Assembly: GCA_020429045.1 (NCBI GenBank)
Contig: JAGQLS010000012.1
Coordinates: forward strand, 1-35,930
Reading direction: 5' to 3'
Length of the DNA stretch: 35,930 nt
Source of the DNA: Candidatus Woesebacteria bacterium
GTDB lineage: Bacteria; Patescibacteriota; Microgenomatia; UBA1406; GWC2-37-13
The notes below the pieces were generated by a model. That model was not told where the DNA came from, did no database searches, and saw nothing but the letters and a program-made list of their open reading frames with translations. Both the position numbers and the translations under genes were made by a program. Positions 6,239 through 35,930 of this stretch are shown here, one piece after another. The stretch's first letter is position 1. Every line of letters starts with the position of its first letter.

Positions 6239-6886
6239 TCACAAACCAAAACCTTGCAACATCTGTAAGAAGTCTCCTGAAGGCATTGCTGTTGTATTTG
6301 TGTCCGCACCCTCGACGAATGAAACAGATTTTGGAATCACAAACGGATCACCCTTGATAGGCTCTTTGAGACACGAAGAAAAAATCGCATTTAACGTTTC
6401 CGCCTGGATCCCGAAAGTCGCAGGAATCTCTTCAGCAATGTTTCCTAACATACCCGTTTGCGAAAACTGGTTATAATAATCCATATATTGCCCTATGCCG
6501 CACATTTTACTTCCTTCTTTCTCGTCTTCTTCCCATTTGTACAAACAATCATCAACCAGGCGAACATGCGAAAGGCGCTCTTCAGAATAGAAATCAACGG
6601 CAACTTGGCCGTCTTGGAAAAATGCCTGATCCTCTGTTCCGTCTGGTAGTTTGTGGAAACATGCAATTGGACCGGTAAGATCGAGCTTGCCACTCTCTGA
6701 GGCAATAAGGATGTCTGGAATAGTAAATTGGATCGTTGGTTCAGGGATCGGTGTAACTGTACCAGCATTAAGCTCGAGGGGAATAGAAGATTGATCTTGG
6801 ATACTTTTTCTATTTAAAAATCCATACAATGCGAAGATAAGGACAAACGTAGGAATGATGATAACGAGGCGAGAAATAAATTTCAT
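6239..6886 (-). CDS. Membrane-anchored exported protein of unknown function
   Basis: 215 aa. An N-terminal hydrophobic helix (residues 6-25, RLVIIIPTFVLIFALYGFLN) acts as signal anchor, and the rest is predicted outside the membrane. A Pro/Thr-containing spacer near residues 42-52 (GTVTPIPEPTIQ) leads to an extracytoplasmic domain. This has four cysteines, in IACFHK, DDCLYK, SKMCGIG and SSCLKE, possibly two disulfides. I do not recognise the domain. The gene converges on the 5S rRNA gene with 29 bp between them. Confidence 0.65.
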   Translation of the reverse strand: MKFISRLVIIIPTFVLIFALYGFLNRKSIQDQSSIPLELNAGTVTPIPEPTIQFTIPDILIASESGKLDLTGPIACFHKLPDGTEDQAFFQDGQVAVDFYSEERLSHVRLVDDCLYKWEEDEKEGSKMCGIGQYMDYYNQFSQTGMLGNIAEEIPATFGIQAETLNAIFSSCLKEPIKGDPFVIPKSVSFVEGADTNTTAMPSGDFLQMLQGFGL

Positions 6887-6922: not shown

Positions 6923-8161
6923 TCAAAATAATTCTTCTTCCTGTTCTTTTGACTTTTTGTGGGACATATCGTTCTCTTCTCCATCGATAAGCTGTGGAGT
7001 ATCGTCATCATCAAACGATTTACCAATGATGCTTTGGAAATCTCCGCGCATACCGAACGTGTGATCAAGCGCCCGACGTAAATTCTGTTCTTCGCGCGCC
7101 CATTTCTTGTTAAACCAGCGTCGCTCTTTCTCGACTTCTTCCTGCATCTGCGAAAATGTTTCGACAATTGCCTCCATGCGGTGTTTGAAATCGGTGCTGT
7201 AGACGTACTCATAAAGTGCCTCCATTTTCCCTTTTTGGCCAGTCATGGCGGTTTTTACTTTGGCGATTTCCATAAGTTGGGTGCGCAGTGCATAGGCAAT
7301 GGGTATGATGTGCTCGAATCCGCACACCCACACCCCATCGATTTCACCAAAGTGTTTGATCTCGTCGGGGAGCTGAGCCGAAACAAGAACCGCAATCTCG
7401 GCGTGTACGGTGCGCTGGTCGCTTTTGAGTTTCGTTACCCACTGGCTGCTCCATGTTTTTGTACGTTTTGTCTCCCAGACGATTATGCCCGACGACGTGC
7501 CCGATCGCGTGCGCACATGTTGCACAATATCGGCACCCGATACACCTTTTGGCACCGGTTCAATCGTATCAAGCGGAAACTCGCGACCTAGTTCTTCTTC
7601 TATCGAAAGCTCAAGAACCTCGCCTTGTAACTGCTGTGAGCCTTGTTTGAGTTTGCGCTGGAGTTCCTCATTGGCTTTCATGGCATCATTTAGCTTCTTT
7701 TCTTTTTCCAAAAGTTGGAGTTTGAATTGTTCTTCGACGCGCTTTTGTTCTTCTTTACGCAGCTTTTCTTGCTGATCTGAAAATTTTTTCTCAAGTTCAC
7801 GCTCCTTGTCTTTTGCTGCGTCTTTGGTTGCGCGGATTTCTTTGGTCAGATCGAGAAGTTCCTTGTGCAGTTCATCGTTTTTCTTTTCTAAATCTTTGGC
7901 TTCTTCGGCCGACTCCTTGAGTTTGTATGCCATTTCTTTAGCGACTTTAACTTTCACTTTCTCTTCTGTTTGTTTTTGCATTTTCTCGATTTCTTCTTCT
8001 TTCCATTTTTTTGCCTTTTCGCGAAGGTCTTGCTTTTCTGCTTCTTGCTTTTTTTTGAGCGCTTCAATCTCGTTTTTGTACTGGTCGGCGATCTGGTGCG
8101 TTATAGCCTCGGTAAGAGGAATCTTTTTTTGGCAGTGTGGACAGGTGATGGAATCGTTCAT
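6923..8161 (-). CDS. DUF2130 family coiled-coil protein
   Basis: 412 aa. It opens with a zinc-ribbon-like CPHC at residues 7-10; no second CxxC is visible. A long, highly charged coiled coil covers about residues 25-205. The conserved DUF2130 core then begins with GEVLELSIEEELGREFP and includes GADIVQHV and IIVWETKRTKTWSSQW. The core is thought to have a PD-(D/E)xK-like nuclease fold, and the D...ExK residues (GAD; WETK) are visible, but its cellular role is not established. The tail is acidic and disordered. The gene is transcribed alone from a TACAAT box 7 nt before the ATG. Confidence 0.85.
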   Translation of the reverse strand: MNDSITCPHCQKKIPLTEAITHQIADQYKNEIEALKKKQEAEKQDLREKAKKWKEEEIEKMQKQTEEKVKVKVAKEMAYKLKESAEEAKDLEKKNDELHKELLDLTKEIRATKDAAKDKERELEKKFSDQQEKLRKEEQKRVEEQFKLQLLEKEKKLNDAMKANEELQRKLKQGSQQLQGEVLELSIEEELGREFPLDTIEPVPKGVSGADIVQHVRTRSGTSSGIIVWETKRTKTWSSQWVTKLKSDQRTVHAEIAVLVSAQLPDEIKHFGEIDGVWVCGFEHIIPIAYALRTQLMEIAKVKTAMTGQKGKMEALYEYVYSTDFKHRMEAIVETFSQMQEEVEKERRWFNKKWAREEQNLRRALDHTFGMRGDFQSIIGKSFDDDDTPQLIDGEENDMSHKKSKEQEEELF

Positions 8162-8777: not shown

Positions 8778-9113
8778 TCACTTAAAAATCCCCAACACCG
8801 AGTTTACGATTGAAAGAAGGAAACTGAAGACGATAGCCCACATAAGATTTTCCACATGGAAACCAGAGACAAATCGATCAGTAAGGAGAATGAGTAAACC
8901 ATTGATAACCATTGAAAACAACCCTAACGTCAGCAGATTAATAGGAAGCGTAAGGATCTTGACAACCGGTTTGATGAAGGTGTTGATGACTCCCATGACC
9001 ACGGCAACAACCAAGGCACTCATATAACCATCAAGCTGCACATGTGGGTGCAAAAGATAGACCGTGATACCAACGGCCAAACTGTTTATGAGAAGTGACA
9101 CGATGATACCCAT
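8778..9113 (-). CDS. Phage holin family 4-type small membrane protein (YvlD-like)
   Basis: 111 aa with four hydrophobic helices: IIVSLLINSLAVGITVYLL, ALVVAVVMGVINTFI, ILTLPINLLTLGLFSMVING, and AIVFSFLLSIVNSVLGIF. The middle signature VINTFIKPVVKILTLPIN is typical of the widespread YvlD/phage-holin-4 family. These are chromosomal membrane proteins of unclear function, not evidence of a prophage. The gene starts 24 bp after the AlaX-type gene on the same strand and is probably read with it, although TGATACCAT just upstream could be an extended -10. Confidence 0.85.
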   Translation of the reverse strand: MGIIVSLLINSLAVGITVYLLHPHVQLDGYMSALVVAVVMGVINTFIKPVVKILTLPINLLTLGLFSMVINGLLILLTDRFVSGFHVENLMWAIVFSFLLSIVNSVLGIFK

Positions 9114-34527: not shown

Positions 34528-34568
34528 ATTTAGTCAAAAGAAATTATTTTTTATTTCAAATAACATAG

Positions 34569-34648
34569 GGGATAAAAGAAGTTTTTCTGGAACGTAGTGG
34601 AAGAAAAATTTGGGAAAATTGCGAGCCGAGCAATTTTCCTTTTATCCC
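34569..34648. terminator. Nested hairpins, possible bidirectional terminator
   Basis: The inner stem GGAAAATTGC (34613-34622) and GCAATTTTCC (34630-34639) is perfect over 10 bp with a 7-nt loop, followed on the plus strand by TTTTAT. An outer repeat GGGATAAAAG (34569-34578) and CTTTTATCCC (34639-34648) is also perfect over 10 bp. On the minus strand the inner stem is followed by an AAATTTTTC tract, so it could end transcripts of the APH-type gene. Confidence 0.6.
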
Positions 34649-34711
34649 TTGGTATACGCCCTGACGACCGAAGGGAGAAGAGCGCAGCGGGGCGCGACTG
34701 AAAGGAGCGAG
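34649..34711. other. GC-rich non-coding stretch
   Basis: Purine-rich sequence of GAGCG/GAAGG-like words (for example CGACCGAAGGGAGAAGAGCG) unlike the surrounding AT-rich DNA. A similar style of sequence (CGAACGAAGCGATAGCGGAG) lies at 35788-35807. No gene seen. Confidence 0.5.
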
Positions 34712-34756
34712 TTTGAAAAAACAAACCGATCATAAAACTAATTTTAGCAATTTTAT
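34712..34756. repeat. Inverted repeat flanking the APH-type gene, left copy
   Basis: Block B TTTGAAAAAACAAACC (34712-34727) and block A ATTTTAGCAATTTTAT (34741-34756), separated by 13 bp. Both recur inverted at 35618-35666. Block A includes the stop codon of the gene. Confidence 0.8.
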
Positions 34757-35619: not shown

Positions 35620-35666
35620 AAAATTGCTAAAATGTCTAAATATTTTAAAGGGTTTGTTTTTTCAAA
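35618..35666. repeat. Inverted repeat flanking the APH-type gene, right copy
   Basis: Block A ATAAAATTGCTAAAAT (35618-35633) and block B GGTTTGTTTTTTCAAA (35651-35666), separated by 17 bp. They are exact reverse complements of the left blocks. Block A includes the start codon of the gene. Confidence 0.8.
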
Positions 35667-35670
35667 TTTC

Positions 35671-35783
35671 GCTTAACGTTTAAGTATATCTGATGTTTGC
35701 CAAAATTCCTTTAAAAATCAATTAGTTTTTGGCAAATATGGGTCGAGCGAGGGCACGAGCGAGCCAGATATACTGTGTTAGGC
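35671..35783. repeat. attC-like imperfect palindrome
   Basis: The ends are GCTTAAC (35671-35677, fits RYYYAAC) and GTTAGGC (35777-35783, fits GTTRRRY), the outer boxes of integron attC sites. Inside are perfect 10-bp arms AGTATATCTG (35683-35692) and CAGATATACT (35765-35774), then a second perfect pair TTTGCCAAAA (35696-35705) and TTTTGGCAAA (35727-35736). A 28-nt asymmetric GC-rich insertion (35737-35764) lies on one side. The total of 113 bp is in the attC size range. No integrase gene is in the window. Confidence 0.5.
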
Positions 35784-35930
35784 GACCCGAACGAAGCGAT
35801 AGCGGAGTGAGAATGCAATGTGGCTTTAGCGTATTTCCAAGTCTCTTTTATCATTTGTTCGAGTGAAAAATTTTCGTTTTGGGCGAAGGGCAGAGGGGAA
35901 TTAAAGGGGTGAATGCCCGTAGTCCAAAAC
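35784..35930. other. Non-coding right edge
   Basis: No gene recognised. It contains a GC-rich GAAGCG/GGAGTGAG stretch just after the attC-like site. At the very edge is an inverted repeat GTTTTGG (35876-35882) / CCAAAAC (35924-35930), with GGGCA/TGCCC nested inside (35888-35892, 35914-35918). Confidence 0.4.

Follow-up and report, generated by a model that had tools for sequence, protein, structure and literature searches.

attC-like folded sites around a kinase gene point to a probable integron-type gene-capture system in Patescibacteria

A kinase gene between two attC-like sites

The window, which is the whole stretch of DNA that we analysed, is an entire contig of 35,930 bp (C3) from an assembly of 1.19 Mb in 58 contigs that is about 95% complete. 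An attC-like site (site 1) lies within about 145 bp of one contig end, next to a gene for an APH-family phosphotransferase. A second site (site 2) lies past the 3' end of this gene and has the same orientation as site 1, so the kinase gene is flanked by two same-orientation sites (Table 1).

Table 1. Features of the kinase cassette and its flanking sites in the window
Feature	Position	Strand	Basis or remark
attC-like site 1	35667-35787	-	Box positions, BLAST homologues, models R1 and R2, fold
Site 1 R'', GCCTAAC	35777-35783	-	
Site 1 stem-1 5' arm	35765-35775	-	
Site 1 one-sided hairpin segment, about 25 nt	about 35740-35764	-	
Site 1 remainder: variable stem 3, stem-1 3' arm, then spacer TTAAAC		-	
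Site 1 R', GTTAAGC	35671-35677	-	
3' end of preceding cassette	35788-35930	-	Leader motif at 35813-35838; contig end at 35930
attC-like site 2	34554-34661	-	R1 55.3 bits, E 6.6e-11; R2 61.3 bits, E 1.7e-10; fold
Predicted APH-family phosphotransferase gene of the cassette, 288 aa	34753-35619	-	Pfam PF01636 (APH), 7e-19
Terminal inverted repeat, start of kinase cassette	35651-35666	.	GGTTTGTTTTTTCAAA on +
Terminal inverted repeat, near end of kinase cassette	34713-34728	.	TTTGAAAAAACAAACC on +
G+C-rich leader between terminal repeat and site 2 R''	34662-34712	-	Like many other cassettes

An earlier note, made from the letters of the window, had described site 1 by its outer boxes (GCTTAAC and GTTAGGC), its paired arms and one-sided unpaired bases. 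On the plus strand the boxes lie exactly where the note had put them and the arms pair as described, but conservation reaches a few bases further than the boxes. The one-sidedness also holds, except that what is one-sided is a whole hairpin segment, not single extrahelical bases. The orientation, which the note had considered unclear, is minus. Read on that strand, the order of elements is GCCTAAC-A-CAGTATATCTG-(one-sided hairpin)-variable stem-CAGATATAC-TTAAAC-GTTAAGC.

Homologues of site 1 were found by BLAST in several other families of the class (best match 7e-13, to a contig with three copies, or five after a fuzzy scan). We used two covariance models. R1 is a consensus fold from fourteen copies with strong covariation, and its training set includes site 1. 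R2 was built from 89 sites that come only from integrase loci of other genomes, so that the membership of both window sites is independent of training. R2 matches site 1 at 72.5 bits (E 5.6e-13); the E-values of both models are rough. As single-stranded DNA, site 1 folds better than 200 of 200 dinucleotide shuffles on both strands (z of −3.5 and −5.4). A search of the region against Rfam gave a weak chance match and nothing else, and the strict pattern RYYYAAC/GTTRRRY is uninformative by itself, as by chance it gives 5 pairs on each strand of the window.

Site 2, which was first found with R1, is divergent: its stem-1 sequence differs from that of site 1, its three-way fold is alike, and its R'' is degenerate (GTATACC). 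The terminal repeats of the kinase cassette pair with each other at 16/16 positions and mark the two ends of the unit. However, only 1 of 3 bases matches between the R'' of site 2 and the R' at the cassette start (GTTAAGC). This counts against an intact unit, and because of this mismatch the unit may be decayed or composite. As for the kinase itself, which had been called a resistance-type gene, its APH family is supported by Pfam but there is no sign that it confers resistance, and the present evidence does not justify naming it a resistance gene.

The leader motif in the preceding cassette (AAAAATACGCTAAAGCCACATTGCACTCTC) is shared by five sites from four genomes and lies upstream of each, in the interval from the terminal repeat to R''. 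Besides the window, its places are upstream of sites 11 and 3128 in L038, 4513 in L039 and 1902 in L041.

An array and a truncated integrase in the same genome

Besides site 1, the same genome holds site 2 in the window, four sites on contig C22 and one lone site on C58. The C22 sites form an array, all on the minus strand, and are matched by R1 and R2 (L048, positions 6420-6621, 7137-7272, 7892-8001 and 8870-8991). Just upstream of this array, on the opposite strand, is an integrase remnant: a 68-codon open frame that breaks after a match to PF13495 (4e-8), the N-terminal domain of tyrosine recombinases. An attI-like sequence, ATCGTATATAAACCAGTTATACGCC, lies between the truncated integrase and the first cassette.

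The note had proposed a search for an integrase. This search yields the truncated tyrosine recombinase beside the C22 array, which is the sole relative that we found in this roughly 95% complete assembly; no intact integrase of the CPR clade turned up in it. Nor is there an integrase gene in the window, which we count against a gene-capture reading here. Two complete tyrosine recombinases, on C55 and C54, were considered as the integrase of this genome and rejected as ordinary Xer proteins. Because the integrase is truncated, the copy of the system in this genome is probably a relict and the kinase cassette is probably immobile; the truncation and the R''/R' mismatch together point to a decaying cassette.

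After the lone site on C58 (L002, 1625-2303) come a small helix-turn-helix gene and a PIN-like frame that is interrupted. Judged by eye, these genes are possibly a toxin-antitoxin cassette.

Intact loci across Patescibacteria

A search of named genomes for the integrase gave 80 loci, nearly all in Patescibacteria, which span Parcubacteria, Microgenomates, Peregrinibacteria, Gracilibacteria, Dojkabacteria, WWE3, CPR3 and others. All of the sites at these loci (89/89) are upstream of the integrase gene and opposite to it, although upstream sequence makes up 30% of the bases. Where at least 1 kb of upstream sequence is available, a site is present in 41 of 46 loci. The sites have a median spacing of 844 bp, with mostly single-gene cassettes in one orientation. 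Contig ends like the one beside site 1 are common in relatives: of the 80 integrase contigs, 33 end no more than 700 nt upstream of the integrase, which would be expected from repeat arrays that break the assembly.

For example, the genome G094 encodes a divergent integrase of 283 amino acids that adjoins an array of five sites. Integrases of this type are encoded divergently beside arrays in G002, G262, G361, G368, G181 (two), G396 and G323 (44-71% identity in alignment A3, in which the catalytic residues are conserved). The near-complete 867-kb contig JAKLDG010000001.1 (G761) carries a long same-strand array beside the integrase (28 kb, 18 matches), and integrase and sites are also found together in the single-contig genomes G701 and G529. 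Thus the suggestion that a CPR genome holds a gene-cassette array is upheld by the further sites, by the cassette structure around the kinase, and by intact integrase-attI-array loci in relatives.

Sites are present in at least 22 of 373 genomes of the class (R1) and at least 62 of 380 genomes of the phylum (R2), and these are lower bounds because the filters were strict. An integrase match and sites co-occur in 37 of the 380 phylum genomes, as compared to 8.6 expected (P = 2e-22, Fisher test).

Architecture of the sites

The cassette sites are hairpins of roughly 65-200 bp that form three-way junctions, with an unbroken stem 1, a one-sided hairpin and a variable stem. In the alignment of 89 sites, two-sided changes occur at 28 of the 32 pairs, and 88.8% of cells are paired (65.8% if shuffled, 27-43% with the partner slid); the alignment was fitted to the structure and so is biased towards it, but the controls are far off. 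The covariation and the fold suggest that the single strand is the substrate.

Stem 1 runs uninterrupted for 12-13 bp in 84 of 146 sites. A bulge on the 5' arm, which would be an extrahelical base, is found in just 1 of the 146; instead, the hairpin is inserted on the same arm. In 79 of the 146, the spacer is asymmetric, with 1 nt against 4 nt (A / AAAC), and it is below the usual length. The R''/R' core is conserved as AAC/GTT, and some sites have ATT. In the G761 array (C1, 257.5-285.8 kb), most R' boxes begin with ATT, whereas the R' of attI retains GTT; attI and attC therefore differ in the base that precedes the cut.

attI and the crossover signature

The attI site at the integrase, with the conserved sequence TTCGNATA-n-AGTTANNNGAAA, corresponds to half a site. 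At 26 of 38 loci, its R' matches the R'' of the first cassette. A cut between bases 1 and 2 of R' would leave the variable bases of each opening R' with the cassette that follows, and their partners would then be in the R'' that closes this cassette, not in the neighbouring R''. Indeed, the three variable bases of a closing R'' are a perfect match for the opening R' of their cassette in 49 of 80 cases (mean of 6.6 and maximum of 18 in 10,000 shuffles). The R'' bases pair perfectly with their own, adjacent R' in only 15 of 116 cases and with the next R' in 8 of 81. The match holds for 15 of 16 cassettes in the long JAKLDG010000001.1 array (17 of the 18 matches were used) and, on C22, for attI and the next two cassettes (3/3). 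About 40% of adjacent cassette pairs lack a perfect boundary match, which we count against the gene-capture reading. Still, these patterns are strong evidence that cassettes are cut and joined as units at this point in R'. The signature is that of an integron-type crossover inside R'; it does not indicate which strand reacts.

The ends of most cassettes also carry inverted repeats. They start right after R', are 10-21 nt long, and are perfectly complementary to the far end of their own cassette, where the second copy abuts R'' or is set off by a G+C-rich leader. Repeats of at least 10 nt are present in 55 of 84 cassettes (shuffled mean 2.9, maximum 7) and in 23 of 26 first cassettes. In contrast, the six class 1 cassettes that we checked have complementary ends of 5-7 nt only. 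Examples are at L048 6029-9751 (on C22), L038 and L235-L236, among others. Such a repeat would lengthen the hairpin at its outer end once the cassette is an excised circle; within an array, where neighbouring cassettes differ, it could not. The repeats may either favour insertion of circles or be a scar of how cassettes are made.

The integrase and its relation to known systems

The best match of the integrase in the PDB, both by sequence (1.6e-48) and by fold (3.6e-17), is IntIA of V. cholerae (IntI4, 2a3v). In the tree, the CPR integrases form a clade (support 97/89) that is apart from the housekeeping Xer proteins of CPR and is sister to IntI (92/85), a relation that is moderately supported and based on five canonical IntIs. 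IntIA is the closest solved relative, yet about 42 of its residues (the ALERKYP... region, I2) are missing in the CPR enzyme, which has 65 residues between the KDR motif and patch III instead of 107. The ability of IntI to use folded single-stranded sites is attributed to the I2 domain and to extrahelical bases. Archaeal IntIs are reported to have the I2 domain (PMC9668308). In canonical attC, two or three extrahelical bases lie on the R''-L'' arm, and the first of these decides strand choice (PMC2727003).

Canonical integrons (class 1, the Vibrio superintegron, archaeal) share with the CPR system a divergent integrase, attI, chromosomal arrays of same-orientation and mostly single-gene cassettes, the R''/R' core, the crossover inside R', a folded site and an asymmetric unpaired central spacer. 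The CPR system differs in having neither I2 nor extrahelical bases, in its three-way junction by way of a one-sided hairpin, in an R box that is sometimes ATT, and in its long cassette-specific terminal repeats. In length, absence of I2 and identity (30-40%), the CPR enzyme resembles archaeal XerA (5hxy, 4a8e) and XerA-like or IS91-associated plasmid recombinases. However, the plasmid recombinases fall outside the clade of IntI and CPR enzymes, and we saw no cassette arrays with them here.

A gene-capture system and its alternatives

Site 1 is very probably a folded recombination site, analogous to attC, of an integron-type gene-capture system of Patescibacteria. As judged from sequence patterns, the system would work as follows. 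A tyrosine recombinase related to IntI, encoded divergently beside attI, would cut after the G of the GTT in R' and would insert circular cassettes at attI, giving arrays that read away from the integrase. The cassette site would act as a folded single strand, with an R box, the spacer, stem 1 as the L box, the one-sided hairpin and the variable stem. The hairpin and the spacer asymmetry probably set the strand and the direction, as extrahelical bases do in canonical attC, and the terminal repeats, by lengthening the hairpin in the excised circle, may favour insertion.

Three other explanations have to be weighed. First, these could be pdif modules, moved by XerC/XerD at dif-like double-stranded sites with no folded single strand. 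Such modules likewise lie between core sites of a recombinase, the inverted half-sites of attI (TTCGTATAA ... TTANNCGAA) form a dif-like pair, and the integrase lacks I2, like Xer. This seems unlikely because the CPR sites are long folded hairpins with compensatory changes in their stems, not short conserved duplexes, and because they are linked to a dedicated integrase that is distinct from housekeeping Xer.

Second, and less likely still, CPR bacteria could have acquired a canonical integron, with an I2-containing IntI and ordinary attC sites. The AAC/GTT core, the divergent integrase, the array orientation and the crossover point all agree with this. However, I2 is consistently absent and extrahelical bases nearly so; none of the 380 phylum genomes has a protein above the cut-off of the integron-integrase model TIGR02249 (the CPR integrase scores 225 bits and the cut-off is 265); and a scan of class 1 and class 2 integron loci with R2 yields no match at E ≤ 10. 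For the same reasons, and because the site is branched, the terms attC and IntI that the note had used do not apply in their canonical sense.

Third, and least probable, the sites could be palindromic intergenic elements (REP, MITE or terminator-like) that are scattered in CPR genomes and unrelated to recombination, which would fit with their being palindromic, intergenic and repeated and with the GCTCGC low-complexity tracts that are common between genes here, but the linkage and boundary results already refute this: all 89 sites lie on the same side of a tyrosine recombinase gene and on the strand opposite to it, cassette starts match their own far ends, and there is a half-site at the integrase.

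Returning to the integron-type system, we see about an even chance that it is a separate, widespread CPR lineage, sister to IntI, which handles folded sites without I2 or extrahelical bases, obtains its polarity from the hairpin, and uses the terminal repeats to favour insertion over excision. If so, streamlined, host-dependent CPR bacteria would have a dedicated system for gene capture. With a sister lineage that lacks I2 and extrahelical bases and has the same boundary signature, the origin of integrons would also become open to direct tests. The system is likely to escape standard integron searches, and the sites could serve as a marker for accessory genes of CPR. We found no earlier report of integrons in Patescibacteria, CPR, Parcubacteria or Microgenomates in the open-access literature, so the novelty is provisional.

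The integrases of different CPR phyla also interleave in the tree (for example, Dojkabacteria with WWE3, support 100/99), which suggests transfer of the system between CPR lineages. The same integrase is found on contigs that were binned as Deltaproteobacteria, Pacearchaeota, Actinomycetota, Margulisiibacteriota and Micrarchaeota (L122, L130, L132, L177 and L180), which reflects either contamination or transfer beyond CPR.
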